From: Ruminococcaceae bacterium Marseille-P2935
GTDB lineage: Bacteria; Bacillota; Clostridia; Oscillospirales; Ruminococcaceae
DNA: 64,000 bases
Assembly: GCA_900104565.1 (NCBI GenBank)
Contig: LT629952.1
Location: 124,001 to 188,000, forward strand
Reading direction: 5' to 3'
The notes beneath the pieces are model-generated. The model was not told the DNA's origin. It did not search any database and saw only the letters and a program-made list of their open reading frames with translations. Numbering within the stretch: the first letter of the stretch is position 1; each line of letters starts with the position of its first letter. A program made the position numbers and the translations under genes. This document shows positions 26,351-33,823 of this stretch, one piece after another.

Positions 26351-26447
26351 GTTTGTATATGTTGTCATTAATTTAACAGTATATTGTGTATATTTTGTCA
26401 ATAAAATATTGGTTGGCTGTTGGGGATAAAAGTTGGGTGATAAAAAT

Positions 26448-27524
26448 TTGCAAAAAACCAAAAAAATAGTTTTAACGGTAGTGGGAATACTGCTGTTAGT
26501 TGCTGCTTTTGCAGTTGGAATATGGTGTTCTAATGAGCAAAAGGCCAATTCAACACCGGTAACCTCTATGCAGTTTATTATGGATACCTTTATTGAACAA
26601 AAGATGTATGGTCGCAGCGCCCAAAAGGTAGTCGATGAAATAAACAGCAGCCTAAAAGACTTTGAGCAGCGTATGTCCATGCATTTAGATGAGTCTGAAG
26701 TAACCATGATTAACCTGAATGCCGGGAAAAAGTTTGTAAGCGTATCTCAAGAGACATTTGACTGTATTAAGCTGGCAAAGGAATATTCTGAAAAATCAAA
26801 CGGCCGGTTTGATGTTACCATAGCACCACTGACAAAGCTGTGGGACATCACAGGCTTAGACCCAAGGGTGCCGCCAAAAGAAGAAATTGATAAGGCACTG
26901 GAGTTGGTGGACTACCAAGATATTTTACTGGATGAAAAAAATCGTGGTGTTATGTTGGCTAAAAAAGGACAGGCAATCGACTTAGGCGGTATTGCCAAAG
27001 GAATGGCCGCCGAGATTGTTATAAACATTGCCCGGGAAAAGGGAATTGAATCCGGTTATGTATCGCTGGGGGGAAACCTGGCAGTAATTGGCCAAAAGCC
27101 AGATGGCAGTGAATACGTGTTTGGCGTACGGGACCCACGAGGAGATGCATCGGAATATATTGGAACGGTTCATCTGCCTGGCAAGACAATGGCCACCACA
27201 GGCGACTATGAACGCTATTTTGTGGAAGATGGCGTGACTTACCACCATATTTTAGACCCCGCAACAGGTTATCCGTGCAAAAGTGATTTTATTTCGGTAA
27301 CAATCATTTCAGAACATGGCGCACTGGCGGATTACCTTTCAACAGCGCTGTTTATGATGGAGAAGGAAGATGCTTTATCTATGATAAACTCTGAAGAGTT
27401 TGAGGCGATTTTGGTCGATCAGGAAAAAAACGTTTATTGGTCCAACTCTTTGGAAGGTAACTTCCGCCCCAATGAAACCAAGACAGAGTACCAGTTTCAC
27501 TCTGCTGGGCGAGAAGGGAAGTGA
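26448..27524 (+). CDS. apbE: FAD:protein FMN transferase ApbE
   Basis: Attaches FMN covalently to threonine in extracytoplasmic flavoproteins such as RnfD and RnfG. About 358 residues. N-terminal membrane anchor (IVLTVVGILLLVAAFAVGIWC; no clear lipobox), then MDTFIEQKMYG, the substrate-pocket QAIDLGGIAKGMAAE, SLGGNLAVIG and HHILDPATGYP, all ApbE signatures. GGTGA at 26436-26440 fits TTG 26448; TTG 26433 is an in-frame alternative. Directly upstream of the RNF genes (3 bp gap), so it probably modifies this operon's own products. Confidence 0.95.
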   Translation: MQKTKKIVLTVVGILLLVAAFAVGIWCSNEQKANSTPVTSMQFIMDTFIEQKMYGRSAQKVVDEINSSLKDFEQRMSMHLDESEVTMINLNAGKKFVSVSQETFDCIKLAKEYSEKSNGRFDVTIAPLTKLWDITGLDPRVPPKEEIDKALELVDYQDILLDEKNRGVMLAKKGQAIDLGGIAKGMAAEIVINIAREKGIESGYVSLGGNLAVIGQKPDGSEYVFGVRDPRGDASEYIGTVHLPGKTMATTGDYERYFVEDGVTYHHILDPATGYPCKSDFISVTIISEHGALADYLSTALFMMEKEDALSMINSEEFEAILVDQEKNVYWSNSLEGNFRPNETKTEYQFHSAGREGK

Positions 27525-27527
27525 CAT

Positions 27528-29399
27528 ATGAGGCAGAACGGTACAAGCGCTGCAAAACGAGTCACAACTATGGGGCTGTTGTTTGCGCTGGCCATTGTAC
27601 TTTCTTTTTTTGAATCTGCAATCATGACGCTTTTTCCCATGCTGCCGCCAGGCGTAAAGCTTGGATTATCGAATGTCGTTACTATGTATTGTTTGTTTTT
27701 AGTGGGAAAAGGCAGCGCGTTTACCCTGGTGGTGCTAAAATCCCTTTTTGCTATGCTGCGCGGGTTTATTAGTGGGGCAATGAGTTTTGCCGGTGGTGCT
27801 GTGTCACTGCTTGTTATGCTTTTTCTTATGGTATTAACCCGCCACAAAGCTCGTTATCTGGCTTTAAGTATAGCCGGGGCTGTAGCCCATAACGCGGGGC
27901 AGATTGTTATGGCCCGGGTGATTTTAAAAAATCGCTACGTATACTATTATTTTCCTATACTCTTGCTGTCCGGCCTGGTGGTCGGCAGTGTAACCGGCAT
28001 GGTACTAAACGTGCTGATGCCATATCTTAGCCGGCTTCCGACAGGCAGTCGGGAAGCAGCAAAATCTATAAAAATGGAGGGCAATAACGTGTCAAAGCTT
28101 TTTCGTAAACGGTTAAGCGGTGTAGCGGTGCCGCATCGCAAGAATACAAAAGACTGTGCCACCGTAATGATGCCAATTCCTGATCGGGTTGTGATTCCCA
28201 TGGTGCAGCATATGGGGGCACCATGCGAACCACTCGTAAAGGTTGGAGATATTGTAAAGGTTGGGCAAAAAATAGGGGATTCTGAACAATATGTAAGCGC
28301 TCCTATTCATGCCAGCGTTTCGGGAAAAGTAACTGGATTGGTTGAAATTATTACTCCCGCAGGAGCAAAAACTACGGCGGTTGAGATTGAAGCCGACAAA
28401 ACACAAGAGCCGGATGCATCTATTTGCCCACCGCAGATAAACAGCAGGGAGGATTTTTTGAAAGCTGTAAGAGCATCAGGGTTAGTGGGCTTAGGCGGTG
28501 CTGGTTTTCCGACTCATGTAAAGCTGAACCCCAAAAATCTTTCTGAGGTTGATACGTTAGTAATTAATGGCGCTGAGTGTGAGCCATATATCACCTCTGA
28601 TTACCGCACCATGATGGAAGATACTGAGGATGTGTTAAGTGGGGTACGCTTGGTTTTAAAATGGCTGGGTATTAAACAGGCTTGCATTGGTATTGAAGAC
28701 AACAAGCCCGATGCCATTGCTAAGTTTGCCAAAGCAGTCGAGAAAGATAGTAATATTCAGGTTGTTACACTGAAGTCTAAATACCCACAGGGGGCAGAAA
28801 AAGTAATTATTTATGAGACCACCGGACGTGTGGTTAAGGAAGGTATGCTTCCATCAGATGTTGGGGCTATTGTTATGAACATCACTTCCTGTGCCTTTTT
28901 GGCAAAATATATGAAAACCGGTATGCCGCTTATTTCTAAGCGTATTACCGTAGACGGCGGTGCGGTTGCCGAGCCAAAAAACCTGGTTGCTCCTATTGGT
29001 ACCCCATTTAATCATATTATTGATTTTTGCGGAGGGTACAAAACAGAACCGAAAAAGCTTTTAATGGGCGGCCCGATGATGGGCATTGCGGTTTATGACG
29101 ATAGCTACCCATTGCTGAAAAATAACAATGCAATTTTGGCTTTCGACCAAAAACAAGTGGAAAATATTTTTGATACCCCTTGTATTCGCTGTGGAAAATG
29201 TGTAGCTGCGTGCCCATTTGACCTGATGCCTGTAGCGATTGAGCGCAGTTATAAAAACAATGATGTAGATGGGCTAAAAGCGTTAAAGGTAAACTTGTGC
29301 ATGGAATGCGGTTGCTGCTCCTACGTTTGTCCGGCAAAGCGTAACCTGGTGCTGACAAATAGAATGGCAAAAGCATTGCTTCGTAAAAATAGTAAGTAG
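27528..29399 (+). CDS. rnfC: Gx-family membrane protein fused to RnfC
   Basis: One continuous 623-residue frame. Residues 1 to about 175 are a hydrophobic Gx transporter domain (heptaprenyl-diphosphate-synthase-component-I family; PGVKLGLSNVVTMY, GAVAHNAGQIVMA). Residues from about 188 are a complete RnfC, the peripheral NADH/ferredoxin-side subunit of the RNF ion pump: VVIPMVQHMGAPCEP, GLGGAGFPTHVK, INGAECEPYITSDYR, and two 4Fe-4S motifs CIRCGKCVAACP and CMECGCCSYVCP. These are usually separate genes. A GGAGG (28076-28080) and in-frame GTG (28089) at the join would allow RnfC of normal length (436 residues) to be made alone. So two products are possible. ATG 27528 has a weak GGGAAG upstream. 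Confidence 0.92.
   Translation: MRQNGTSAAKRVTTMGLLFALAIVLSFFESAIMTLFPMLPPGVKLGLSNVVTMYCLFLVGKGSAFTLVVLKSLFAMLRGFISGAMSFAGGAVSLLVMLFLMVLTRHKARYLALSIAGAVAHNAGQIVMARVILKNRYVYYYFPILLLSGLVVGSVTGMVLNVLMPYLSRLPTGSREAAKSIKMEGNNVSKLFRKRLSGVAVPHRKNTKDCATVMMPIPDRVVIPMVQHMGAPCEPLVKVGDIVKVGQKIGDSEQYVSAPIHASVSGKVTGLVEIITPAGAKTTAVEIEADKTQEPDASICPPQINSREDFLKAVRASGLVGLGGAGFPTHVKLNPKNLSEVDTLVINGAECEPYITSDYRTMMEDTEDVLSGVRLVLKWLGIKQACIGIEDNKPDAIAKFAKAVEKDSNIQVVTLKSKYPQGAEKVIIYETTGRVVKEGMLPSDVGAIVMNITSCAFLAKYMKTGMPLISKRITVDGGAVAEPKNLVAPIGTPFNHIIDFCGGYKTEPKKLLMGGPMMGIAVYDDSYPLLKNNNAILAFDQKQVENIFDTPCIRCGKCVAACPFDLMPVAIERSYKNNDVDGLKALKVNLCMECGCCSYVCPAKRNLVLTNRMAKALLRKNSK
28076..28091 (+). promoter_or_regulatory. Internal ribosome binding site and GTG inside the Gx-RnfC frame
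   Basis: GGAGG (28076-28080), 8-bp spacer, GTG (28089-28091) in frame with both domains. The codon falls exactly where RnfC proteins normally begin (SKLFRKRLSGVAVPH). Confidence 0.6.
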
Positions 29400-29410
29400 G
29401 GGTGAATCAA

Positions 29411-30352
29411 TTGAACAATTTATTGACCGTTACGCCTTCGCCTCATATCAAGAGCGGAAATTCGACTACCCGCATTATGCTGGATGTAGTACTTGCAATG
29501 GTTCCTGCATTGATCGCGTCGGTGATTATTTTTGGGCTGCGCAGTTTGTTGCTTGTTGCAGTTTGCGTAGTATCCTGTGTTGTGTTTGAATACTTGTTCC
29601 GGGTGGTTACCAAACGGGCCAATACCATTTCGGATTTAAGTGCTGTGGTAACCGGTATGCTGCTGGCATTCAATTTACCGGTAACTTTTCCAATCTGGAT
29701 GGCTGTACTAGGCTGCTTTGTTGCAATTGTCATTGTTAAACAGCTGTTTGGCGGTATTGGACAAAATTTTGCCAACCCGGCCATTACTGCCAGAATAGTT
29801 TTGCTTGTTTCCTTTGCAGGGCAGATGAGCAATTGGCTGATCCCCCAGAAAACCGCCGGGGGAATTGAGCTGGTTTCGGGTGCAACCCCGCTGACTCTGC
29901 TGGCCGAGGGTACGGCGGAAGGCATTCCAAGCTATATGGATCTCTTCCTTGGGCTGCGAGGCGGCTGTTTGGGTGAAACCTGTGTGCTGGCACTGCTGAT
30001 TGGCGGCGTATACTTAGTTATTCGTAAGGTGATTAACCCGATTATTCCTGTGGCCTTTATGGGTACAGTGTTCCTGTTCAGCTGGGCATTGGGAGCCGAC
30101 CCTCTGATGCAGCTGCTTACCGGCGGCGTTGTACTTGGTGCTGTTTTTATGGCAACCGACTATTCCACCAGCCCGGTAACCAATTGGGGAAAATTAATTT
30201 TTGGCATTGGATGTGGATTGCTCACGGTAGTGATCCGGCAGTTTGGCTCTTACCCGGAAGGTGTGTCATTCGCTATTTTATTAATGAACATTTTAACCCC
30301 GCACATTGACACCCTCACCAAAACCAAGCCGTTTGGAGGTGTGGCAAAATGA
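29411..30352 (+). CDS. rnfD: RNF complex membrane subunit RnfD
   Basis: Integral flavoprotein subunit of the RNF complex, which couples ferredoxin:NAD+ electron flow to Na+ or H+ export. About 313 residues, many membrane helices. The covalent FMN site is visible as VSGATPLTLLAEG with Thr159 as the expected attachment point; NFANPAITARI and FMATDYSTSPV are family signatures. AGGGGTGA at 29398-29404 favours TTG 29411 over GTG 29402. The 3' end overlaps rnfG by 4 bp. Confidence 0.95.
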   Translation: MNNLLTVTPSPHIKSGNSTTRIMLDVVLAMVPALIASVIIFGLRSLLLVAVCVVSCVVFEYLFRVVTKRANTISDLSAVVTGMLLAFNLPVTFPIWMAVLGCFVAIVIVKQLFGGIGQNFANPAITARIVLLVSFAGQMSNWLIPQKTAGGIELVSGATPLTLLAEGTAEGIPSYMDLFLGLRGGCLGETCVLALLIGGVYLVIRKVINPIIPVAFMGTVFLFSWALGADPLMQLLTGGVVLGAVFMATDYSTSPVTNWGKLIFGIGCGLLTVVIRQFGSYPEGVSFAILLMNILTPHIDTLTKTKPFGGVAK

Positions 30353-31731
30353 AGATAGTGAAAGATTTTGTCCTGCCGACGGTAGTTTTAACTGTAATTT
30401 GCCTAATTGTCTCCTTTGCGTTGGTATTTACCAACAGCATTACCGAACCAATCATTACTGAACGTCTGAACGCCGAGGCTACGGCAGCCCGGATTGAGCT
30501 GTTGCCCGAAGCGGATACCTTTACTCCGGTAGAAAACCTGGAAAACCCGCCCGAAGGCTTTGTAGACTGCTATGTGGCAAAAAATGGTGCGGGGTATGTA
30601 ATTACCACCAAGGCCTTTGGTTATGGCGGTGAGATCACCGTAATGACTGGCATTAAGTCTGATTCTACCATATCTAAGGTTAAAGTGCTGAACCATGGTG
30701 AAACCACTGGCATTGGAACCAGGGTGGTAGATGATGAAAATTACCTGTCCACCTATAACGGAAAAACCGGAAGTTTGGAAGGGGTCACCGGTGTAGCGGG
30801 CGCTACAGTTTCTTCCAAAGGGCTGCGTTCCGCAGTTACTGCCGCATTTGAGGTTTACTCTGCGGTTTCAGGTGCCGATGTTCCAGAGGCGGAAAACCCG
30901 ATTGACCCGGAAAAACCCGAAACCCCGCCGGTTGACTTTATGGCGCAGCTTTTCCCGGATGTTCCGAAAGGCAATGTAATCGAAAGCGCTTCGGAGGAGT
31001 ACACCGCATTTAAAGCAGGGGACCAGGGCTTTGTGATTCTTTCTTCACAGGAAGGTTTTTATTCCAAACCACTGACCTTGGCGGTAGGATTTGATCCAAA
31101 CGGTTCTATTGTGGGGATTGTAGTAACTGAAATGAATGAGACCGACGGCGTTGGTTCGGGAGTAGGCGATGCTGCCTATTTAGAAAAATATGTGGGTAAA
31201 ACCTCTGCCGGGGATATTGACGGTGTTGAGAATGTATCAGGGGCTACCATCTCTTCTACGGCATTTAAAGATGCTGTAAAAGCTGCCGTTGAGCTGTTTG
31301 ATACCGTAAAAAACGATATGCAGTCGGCCATTGCGCCTTTTATAACCAAAATTTATTCTGATGCAACGGCAGAAGAGGTAACCAGTGCCGAAGTAGATGG
31401 ATTTGCTGCTTACAAGGTGGGAAGTAAAGGATATATCGCACTTGGCTCTGCAGAAGGCTTTTATTCCAAACCGCTGACCTTGGCAGTCGGGTTTGATGCT
31501 AATGGTTCTATTTCTGGCATCGCAGTGACCGAAATGAACGAGACCGAGGGGGTTGGCTCTGGAGTAGGAGATGCTGCCTATTTAGAAAAATATGTGGGAA
31601 AAACCTCTGCTGCAGATGTTGATGGTGTTGAAAATGTAGCTGGTGCTACCATTTCATCTACCGCCTTTAAGGATGCATTAAAAGATGCGATAGAAAGATT
31701 TGGCCAGGCGAAAGGGGTGCTGGGTGCATGA
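30349..31731 (+). CDS. rnfG: Enlarged RnfG with three FMN-binding domains
   Basis: RnfG is normally about 200 residues with one membrane anchor and one covalently flavinylated domain on the outer face. This one has 460 residues: anchor (about 8-28), FMN domain 1 (to about 175, VAGATVSS with Thr153), a proline-rich linker (about 182-198), FMN domain 2 (to about 325, VSGATISS with Thr300) and FMN domain 3 (to the end, VAGATISS with Thr434). Domains 2 and 3 are near copies, 134 codons apart, also alike at DNA level (31051-31283 and 31453-31685), so the last duplication is recent. ApbE at the head of the operon would load all three sites. Overlaps its neighbours by 4 bp on each side. Confidence 0.93.
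   Translation: MKIVKDFVLPTVVLTVICLIVSFALVFTNSITEPIITERLNAEATAARIELLPEADTFTPVENLENPPEGFVDCYVAKNGAGYVITTKAFGYGGEITVMTGIKSDSTISKVKVLNHGETTGIGTRVVDDENYLSTYNGKTGSLEGVTGVAGATVSSKGLRSAVTAAFEVYSAVSGADVPEAENPIDPEKPETPPVDFMAQLFPDVPKGNVIESASEEYTAFKAGDQGFVILSSQEGFYSKPLTLAVGFDPNGSIVGIVVTEMNETDGVGSGVGDAAYLEKYVGKTSAGDIDGVENVSGATISSTAFKDAVKAAVELFDTVKNDMQSAIAPFITKIYSDATAEEVTSAEVDGFAAYKVGSKGYIALGSAEGFYSKPLTLAVGFDANGSISGIAVTEMNETEGVGSGVGDAAYLEKYVGKTSAADVDGVENVAGATISSTAFKDALKDAIERFGQAKGVLGA
31051..31685 (+). repeat. 402-bp-offset internal duplication in rnfG
   Basis: 31051-31283 and 31453-31685 encode almost the same 78 residues (from EGFYSKPLTLAVGF to STAFKDA). Most base differences are at third positions. It duplicates one FMN-binding domain. 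Confidence 0.85.
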
Positions 31732-32399
31732 AAAAATTAAAAATACTGCTGAATGGCATTATTAAAGAAAATCCGGTACTAGTACTAGTTCTGGGTACCT
31801 GCCCGACCTTGGCTGTCACAACCATGGCCGTAAACGGTGTTGGTATGGGTATGGCGGCTACCGTTGTACTGCTTTGCTCAAATGTTGCAATTTCTCTGCT
31901 GAAAAATATTATTCCCGACAAAGTTCGAATTCCGTGCTATATTGTTATAGTTGCTGGCTTTGTAACGATTGTAGGCCAATTGGTAAAAGCATTTGCACCA
32001 GATATTGACGCTGCGCTCGGAATTTTCCTGCCGCTGATTGTGGTAAACTGTATTATTCTTGGCCGCGCCGAGATGTTTGCCAGCAAAAACAGTGTTCTGG
32101 ATTCTGCTCTGGATGGTATTGGCATGGGCCTTGGCTTTACGCTGGCTTTGCTCATCATGGGCTCTATCCGCGAAATTTTAGGTTCCGGAAGTTGGTTTGG
32201 CATGCAAATTCCATTTATTACCGAGCCAGTTGGTATTCTTGTTCTTGCCCCAGGTGGTTTCTTTGTATTTGGCTGCCTGGTAGCTTTGGTAAACAAACTG
32301 ACCAAAGGCAAAGCGGTAGGCAAACGTGAGATGGGCTGCGCCGCCTGTCCTTCTGCAAGTTTCTGTGGAAAAGCATCGGAAGGGGGCTGTGAAAAATGA
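31728..32399 (+). CDS. rnfE: RNF complex membrane subunit RnfE
   Basis: Six-helix membrane subunit, homologous to RnfA and to NqrD. 223 residues. LGTCPTLAVTTMAVNG and VNCIILGRAEMFAS are typical, the latter near the cysteine that helps bind the intramembrane iron-sulfur cluster shared with RnfA. Odd: the C-terminal tail after the last helix carries four extra cysteines (GCAACPSASFCGK...GGCEK, residues about 203-222). Starts in a 4-bp overlap with rnfG and ends in one with rnfA. Confidence 0.95.
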   Translation: MKKLKILLNGIIKENPVLVLVLGTCPTLAVTTMAVNGVGMGMAATVVLLCSNVAISLLKNIIPDKVRIPCYIVIVAGFVTIVGQLVKAFAPDIDAALGIFLPLIVVNCIILGRAEMFASKNSVLDSALDGIGMGLGFTLALLIMGSIREILGSGSWFGMQIPFITEPVGILVLAPGGFFVFGCLVALVNKLTKGKAVGKREMGCAACPSASFCGKASEGGCEK

Positions 32400-32992
32400 G
32401 CCAAATGATGTTTATTTTAGTCAGTGCGATTTTTGTAGAAAACTTTGTACTGAGCAAATTCCTTGGTATCTGCCCGTTCCTTGGCGTTTCGAAAAAGCTG
32501 GATTCTGCTGTTGGCATGAGTTTGGCGGTAACATTTGTTATGTGTATTTCTACAGCGGTAACCTGGCCGCTGTATACCTACCTGCTTAAACCAAAAAATT
32601 TGGATTATATGCAGACAGTAGTATTTATTCTGGTCATTGCCGCATTGGTTCAGCTGGTAGAGATTATCTTGAAAAAGTATGTTCCTGCGTTACACCAGTC
32701 TTTGGGCGTATATTTGCCGCTGATTACCACCAACTGTGCAGTTTTGGGTGTTACTATCCTCAATGTAGACGGTGCTAAAGCGTTTAGTTACGGTCAGGCT
32801 ATGGTAAACTCGGTAGGTGCGGGGCTTGGGTTTATGCTTGCCATGGTGCTCTTCTCTGGTGTGCGCAGTAGGGTAGAGACCAGCGACCGCCCTGAATCCT
32901 TTAAGGGTTTGCCCGCAACCCTAATTGCCGCTTCGATTGTATCGGTGGCATTTATGGGCTTCTCAGGAGTTGCCGAAGGCATCTTCCATTAA
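32396..32992 (+). CDS. rnfA: RNF complex membrane subunit RnfA
   Basis: Six-helix membrane subunit pairing with RnfE in inverted topology around a 2Fe-2S cluster. 198 residues, normal. NFVLSKFLGICPFLGVS at the N-terminus and TTNCAVLGVTI in the middle are the conserved cysteine-containing helices. Its ATG overlaps the rnfE stop; rnfB follows after 18 bp. Confidence 0.96.
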   Translation: MSQMMFILVSAIFVENFVLSKFLGICPFLGVSKKLDSAVGMSLAVTFVMCISTAVTWPLYTYLLKPKNLDYMQTVVFILVIAALVQLVEIILKKYVPALHQSLGVYLPLITTNCAVLGVTILNVDGAKAFSYGQAMVNSVGAGLGFMLAMVLFSGVRSRVETSDRPESFKGLPATLIAASIVSVAFMGFSGVAEGIFH

Positions 32993-33010: not shown

Positions 33011-33823
33011 ATGGAAATTTATCTAATTCCGGTTGGTCTGGTAACCCTGATTGGAATATTGGCCGGCCTGGGCCTCGCGCTGGCCTCCAAATTTATGGCG
33101 GTCCCTGTTGATGAAACATTCGATAAGGTTCGTGCCTGTTTGCCTGGGGTAAACTGCGGTGCTTGCGGCTATGCTGGCTGTGATGACTACGCAAAAGCAT
33201 TGACACAGAACAATGGTATAAAAACCAACCTATGTATCCCTGGTGGTGATGGTGCTGCCAAAGCCATCAGCGAGGCATTGGGGGTTGAGTTTGAAGATGT
33301 GGAGGAACAATCCGCCGTGGTACGCTGTGCCGGCAATTGCGAGGTATCTTCTTATGTAATGGATTATGAAGGCCCGCAGACCTGTGCCGCCTGCAATACC
33401 TTTTACCAGGGCAGAAGAAGCTGTTCCAGCGCCTGCCTGGGCTATGGGGATTGTGTAGATGTTTGTCAATATGATGCAATTCATATTGAAAATGGTGTAG
33501 CAGTGGTGGATAAATCCCGCTGTGTTGGCTGTGGCATGTGTGCTAAAATGTGCCCTAACAATTTAATTACCATTGTGCCCTTCACCAGCAATGTAACAGT
33601 TACCTGTTCTTCTCATGATAAGGGCGCTTATACACGTAAGGTGTGTAAAGTAGGGTGTATTGGCTGCCGCAAATGTGAAAAATCCTGCCCGACAGGCGCT
33701 ATTACTGTCAATGATAACCTGGCTGCCATTGACCCTGCAAAATGCATTAACTGTGAAGTATGCGTTGGCCAGTGCCCAACTGGTGCTATTCAGGTAATTA
33801 AGTGTAAAAATTTAGAAGCATAA
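33011..33823 (+). CDS. rnfB: RNF complex ferredoxin subunit RnfB
   Basis: Iron-sulfur subunit that takes electrons from ferredoxin. 270 residues: N-terminal membrane helix, the 4Fe-4S domain with CLPGVNCGACGYAGCDDYA (about 39-58), a second cysteine set around CAACNTFY, and further 4Fe-4S ferredoxin motifs, among them CVGCGMCAKMCP, CIGCRKCEKSCP and CINCEVCVGQCP. Many clusters in a row make it a multi-step electron wire. GGAGG precedes the ATG. Last gene of the operon, 20 bp before a terminator. Confidence 0.96.
   Translation: MEIYLIPVGLVTLIGILAGLGLALASKFMAVPVDETFDKVRACLPGVNCGACGYAGCDDYAKALTQNNGIKTNLCIPGGDGAAKAISEALGVEFEDVEEQSAVVRCAGNCEVSSYVMDYEGPQTCAACNTFYQGRRSCSSACLGYGDCVDVCQYDAIHIENGVAVVDKSRCVGCGMCAKMCPNNLITIVPFTSNVTVTCSSHDKGAYTRKVCKVGCIGCRKCEKSCPTGAITVNDNLAAIDPAKCINCEVCVGQCPTGAIQVIKCKNLEA

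Follow-up and report, generated by a model that had tools for sequence, protein, structure and literature searches.

The window analyzed here, a 64,000-nucleotide stretch of contig LT629952.1 from Ruminococcaceae bacterium Marseille-P2935, contains a complete apbE-rnfCDGEAB cluster on the forward strand, with overlapping or tightly packed frames, and this cluster is the setting of an RnfG that has three FMN_bind domains. The flavin transferase gene apbE (26433 to 27524; PF02424, E = 1.2e-84) is located upstream within the same cluster and is the only ApbE match in a profile search of the bacterium's own genome (2.67 Mb, with a computed completeness of 100%). The following frame (27528 to 29399) combines a Gx-transporter-like membrane domain, Hpre_diP_synt_I (PF07456, 18 to 162), with RnfC (RnfC_N, 198 to 291, Complex1_51K, SLBB, and 4Fe-4S). 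It is followed by rnfD (29402 to 30352; PF03116, E = 7.6e-117) and by rnfG, an open frame of 460 amino acids with an ATG start (30349 to 31731) that overlaps both the end of the rnfD frame at 30352 and the start of the next rnf frame at 31728. Two PF02508 subunits come next, at 31728 to 32399 (E = 3e-67) and 32396 to 32992 (E = 4.4e-60), which we take from the gene order to be RnfE and RnfA, respectively. The last gene (33011 to 33823) matches PF04060 FeS and several Fer4 profiles and is named rnfB, the multi-[4Fe-4S] subunit, from its domains and the gene order.

The transporter-like domain runs in frame into RnfC, and a GGAGGG followed by GTG near position 28089 could still allow RnfC to start on its own. 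The two are encoded in separate frames in all 11 of the relatives opened, so that the fusion does not recur in these 11; the joined frame may reflect either genuine fusion of RnfC with the transporter-like domain or a lost stop codon.

By gene position and anatomy, the product of 30349 to 31731 is RnfG, and the RNF ion pump to which it belongs is ordinary in other respects. The gene lies between rnfD and rnfE/rnfA, and the protein has a single N-terminal membrane helix, as read from the sequence, followed by an FMN_bind domain with Thr153. Its first 182 residues align to solved RnfG structures (9eri_G, E = 2.2e-12; 7zc6_G, E = 6.2e-12), with the alignment to 7zc6_G beginning at residue 1. A sequence-only reading of this DNA had proposed that RnfG was expanded here from one to three covalent-FMN domains, with GAT motifs at Thr153, Thr300, and Thr434. 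Both the domain count and the three threonine positions were confirmed exactly: PF04205 matched the protein in three stretches (E = 3.9e-44; 149.6 bits against a cutoff of 22), and each domain alone exceeded the Pfam cutoff in a whole-genome search. Domain 1 (D1; 30619 to 30849, 57.9 bits), the canonical RnfG ectodomain that aligns to 9eri and 7zc6, carries the Thr153 codon at 30805 to 30807. It is separated by a Pro/Glu/Asp-rich linker of about residues 173 to 195 (30865 to 30933), read from the translation, from domain 2 (D2; 31060 to 31293, 59.9 bits), with the Thr300 codon at 31246 to 31248. Domain 3 (D3; 31462 to 31695, 57.6 bits) carries the Thr434 codon at 31648 to 31650. The acceptor motifs are VAGAT, VSGAT, and VAGAT in D1, D2, and D3, each retaining the [S/T]GA[S/T]-like form. 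All three domains agree at nine of the 10 flavin-site positions tabulated; at the tenth, D1 has Glu, and D2 and D3 have Asp. FMN is therefore predicted, from these motifs, to be attached at Thr153, Thr300, and Thr434. No multi-heme cytochrome domain was found in this RnfG, where FMN_bind was the only Pfam match and the translation contains no CXXCH. A structure model of the protein was poor (pLDDT 55.7, from a three-sequence alignment) and gave no usable domain geometry.

The sequence-only reading had further described D2 and D3 as near-identical over a 402-bp offset, with mainly third-position differences, and had ascribed them to a recent duplication under selection for the protein. The offset is the best by far (score of 148, with 12.4 for the next, among offsets of 60 to 699 bp), and third codon positions hold 31 of the 40 nucleotide differences. 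The likeness, though, spans about 237 bp (79 amino acids) rather than the full 402-bp unit, so that near-identity was too strong a description. At this offset, the core tract of the first copy (31051 to 31287, residues 235 to 313) and that of the second (31453 to 31689, residues 369 to 447) are 82.7% identical in nucleotides and 88.6% in amino acids, whereas the flanks are only 21% (42 residues before the core) and 23% (13 residues after it) identical. With shifted borders, the values were 84% for the core and 18% for the flank. The rates computed for the core were a dS of 0.89 (bootstrap, 0.63 to 1.52), a dN of 0.060, and a dN/dS of 0.067 (0.033 to 0.147). These values bear out selection for the protein, with both copies long held by purifying selection, but a dS of about 0.9 does not support a recent duplication. 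Recent duplication of the whole unit was rejected as stated, the flanks being too divergent.

To place the flank divergence in context, it was compared with all survey domain pairs whose cores are 75 to 95% identical (53 pairs, which include related pairs and are not 53 independent draws). Over the 40 residues that lead into the core, these pairs had a median identity of 82%; the pair in the window was the lowest at 21%, and the next lowest was 42%. The D2 core is 86% like the D3 core, and the next-scoring cores are at 43 to 47%. The stretch before D2, in turn, scores best against domain 2 of another genus (L038, 45%), and for the stretch before D3 the best-scoring partner is still, by a narrow margin, that of D2 (51, with 50 for L003). 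Only one other within-gene pair has alike cores, domains 1 and 2 of L052 (76%), and its flanks are less extreme at 47%. The combination of alike cores with extreme flank divergence suggests that D2 and D3 are an older pair whose cores were homogenized. Gene conversion of the cores is, in our judgment, somewhat the better account. Faster divergence of the flanks retains a sizable share of the probability, because synonymous sites do not independently indicate two ages: among codons for the same amino acid, synonymous differences were found in 27/69 in the core and 6/12 in the flanks (Fisher P = 0.53).

To determine the number of FMN_bind domains in related RnfG proteins, a protein search was made of 247 genomes of the same family, 201 of which had a match, and a second search covered 61 relatives, including other families, of which 53 had a match. 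In total, 156 loci were read, with 157 frames bearing FMN_bind domains; four rows had been dropped before the survey, namely L153 and L031 to L033, the last three being the L001 gene again. A hit counted as a domain of its own only if it had at least 70 amino acids and did not overlap another, a rule that moved L156 and L159 from two domains to one. RnfD upstream and RnfA/E downstream were present for 148/157 frames; of the other nine, six had RnfD in the same frame and three had no neighbor match on one or both sides. The six (L101, L116, L144, L145, L149, and L155), open frames of 497 to 564 amino acids, are apparent RnfD-RnfG fusions with a single FMN_bind domain, and in L116 a further RnfG-like frame lies directly behind the joined one.

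Within the family, 145 of the 201 matching genomes were examined, one locus each and the window included. One domain was found in 100 genomes, two in 32, three in 10, and four in 3, so that RnfG with two to four domains occurs in 45/145 (including the window's own genome), a fraction likely on the high side because the genomes examined were mostly the better matches and some others, such as G070, were left out. The proposal that homologs be searched for domain number thus yielded recurring extra domains. Since 100/145 genomes have one domain, the extra domains are dispensable to RNF. The nearest relatives by their match to the Gx-RnfC frame, G004 (61%) and G006 (57%), have two domains each, and the next, G066 and G062, have one each. 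A Thr or Ser occupies the acceptor column in 59/62 appended domains, in 46/46 first domains of multidomain RnfG, and in 111/111 single domains, with near-identical relatives counted. The three appended domains that lack it belong to other genomes. In L037 and L038, it is the third domain of a three-domain RnfG that has no Ser or Thr in this column; these two domains are probably flavin-free, judging from the alignment, which is less sure for L038 because a VGAS lies nearby.

A domain tree was built from 90 columns and 120 rows, without the near-copies L042, L045, L048, L058, and L061 and without about three in four of the single-domain rows; many of its forks are unresolved. D2 and D3 of the window cluster with 32/50 appended domains of other genomes (96/92), in a cluster that also takes in three first domains belonging to a divergent group; the remaining 18 appended domains lie outside it. 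D2 is the sister of D3 (100/98), a pairing specific to the window genome, which is the sole genome of its genus compared. Taken as a whole, the appended domains need at least four changes by the starred branches, and several gains, losses, or exchanges are therefore likely. The simplest history suggested by the tree is that an older appended domain came first and that D2 and D3 split later in the lineage of the window. A one-to-three expansion in one recent step, as originally supposed, probably did not occur, as appended domains occur widely in other genomes as well, and what is specific here is the D2/D3 pairing alone. RnfG proteins with four FMN_bind domains were seen in L006, L058, and L061. 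In L006, the only one of these in the tree, domains 2 and 4 are sisters (92/88), and domains 1 and 3 share a clade made up largely of first domains but are not sisters; by this placement, L006 may have arisen through doubling of a two-domain unit.

The appended domains appear to derive from RnfG itself. When the 62 appended units and the 46 first units were each aligned and the two alignments compared with hhalign, they matched over 122 columns (probability of 99.9, E = 1.9e-36), including an LLPEA-like stretch before the core, and this match through the precore stretch identifies the appended units as RnfG-type ectodomains. Recruitment of bead-type domains, like those of SaFMN3 and CbFMN4, was rejected as the likelier source on the same match and because matches to domain 1 of CbFMN4 (8p2b) are weak (D2, E = 0.00086; D3, E = 0.016). 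Solved RnfG is likewise matched only weakly by D2 and D3 (E = 0.00091 and 0.011, respectively, for the best hit, 7zc6_G), and the structural matches are therefore not enough on their own to settle the source.

An RnfG with more than one flavin is not new. The statement in the sequence-only reading that RnfG is known to carry a single FMN omits a class described by Méheust et al. (2021, eLife; PMC8238504), in excerpts of which RNF clusters with multi-flavinylated RnfG are reported and a second (bifurcated) outward electron path is proposed. The three-domain RnfG is thus already in print as a class, and the window protein adds one more example, unusual only in its patchwork repeat. The protein resembles that class in having more than one FMN_bind domain within an RNF cluster, to which apbE also belongs in the window; it differs from the multi-flavin/multi-heme RnfG of PMC8238504 in that it has no multi-heme cytochrome domain. 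The excerpts treat the class as a whole and describe no individual sequences, so the window protein may already belong to the set studied, and they contain no mention of a patchwork D2/D3 repeat. Like canonical RnfG (7zc6 and 9eri), the window protein has the N-terminal stretch and a D1 with the acceptor threonine, but it carries two further C-terminal RnfG-type domains. SaFMN3 and CbFMN4 also have an N-terminal anchor with FMN_bind domains in tandem, and their three and four domains, respectively, carry covalent FMN when made with ApbE, according to excerpts of PMC10339131; three FMN are likewise predicted for the window RnfG. The domains of SaFMN3 and CbFMN4 are short and of the bead type, with over 80% likeness among those of the same protein, whereas the window protein is an RNF subunit whose units have the RnfG-type stretch ahead of the core. 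Among the papers listed in literature searches, which included flavinylation papers from 2021, 2023, and 2024 and a 2025 ApbE review, titles and the openings of abstracts disclosed no study of a multidomain RnfG, and no experimental test of the outward-path idea was found in the flavinylation literature searched.

The reading that we favor, with moderate confidence, is that of a multi-flavinylated RnfG in which D2 and D3 form a side branch of the RNF pump that leads electrons from D1 to acceptors beyond the membrane. In excerpts of PMC12174285, RnfG moves between RnfA/E and RnfD, passing one electron. D1, located beside the N-terminal helix, has the anatomy for this role and, by analogy with solved RNF complexes, would receive the electron at the iron-sulfur cluster of RnfA/RnfE and deliver it to the flavin of RnfD. 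D2 and D3, each with a predicted ApbE-attached FMN, would be tethered on the outer face by the Pro/Glu-rich linker, would most likely take electrons from D1, and could pass them to acceptors outside the membrane. Flavinylation itself, electron transfer between the domains, and the outside acceptor are what we infer here. An outward path, which the sequence-only reading had also inferred and which agrees with the proposal made in PMC8238504 for multi-flavinylated RnfG, is plausible.

Four families were searched in the genome for a candidate acceptor (PF04205, PF00890, PF14537, and PF12682). The profile search found no other FMN_bind match and no match to Cytochrom_c3_2 or Flavodoxin_4, and the best FAD_binding_2 protein (559 amino acids) has a start without an evident signal peptide, as judged by eye. 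The excerpts of PMC8238504 name no acceptor either. This outcome counts against the side branch, as do the 100 family genomes with a single domain and the three appended domains elsewhere that lack an acceptor residue. The missing acceptor would suit an electron buffer, in which the extra flavins store electrons near RnfG and even out their passage between ferredoxin and NAD+ without an outside acceptor. The three FMN of SaFMN3 have a single potential of -184 mV, from which the authors inferred no directionality in excerpts of PMC10339131, and flavins that share one potential suit storage as much as conduction. The missing gene says little, however, because quinones, free flavins, or iron would leave no gene trace, and we regard buffering as a minority possibility. 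It is more doubtful still that D2 and D3 are spacers or interaction modules whose flavinylation is incidental or absent. Such a role would accord with the variable domain number in the family and with the three appended domains that lack an acceptor residue, but not with an acceptor kept in the remaining 59 or with core residues held under strong purifying selection while the flanks diverge. A recent, functionless tandem duplication that will soon be lost, to which only the restriction of the sister pair D2/D3 to the window genome might point, is very improbable given the synonymous divergence, the long purifying selection on both copies, and the retention of every tabulated flavin-site residue in D2 and D3.

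Combining the outward path with the history of the domains, a bolder and less likely reading is that the family has repeatedly rebuilt RnfG with copies of its own ectodomain, neighboring cores being kept alike by gene conversion while the flanks diverge, which would give a self-contained outward flavin wire. Such a wire would need no other FMN_bind protein, as the genome search found no FMN_bind gene besides rnfG. In RNF, electrons normally pass out to RnfG and then straight back in. If the side branch is real, the extra flavins of RnfG would let some of these electrons leave, linking the ferredoxin pool to acceptors outside the cell membrane. Because the genome has one apbE match and one FMN_bind gene, flavin bands of the FMN_bind type should come from this RnfG, and the genome of this bacterium would therefore be a clean place for testing the outward-path idea.
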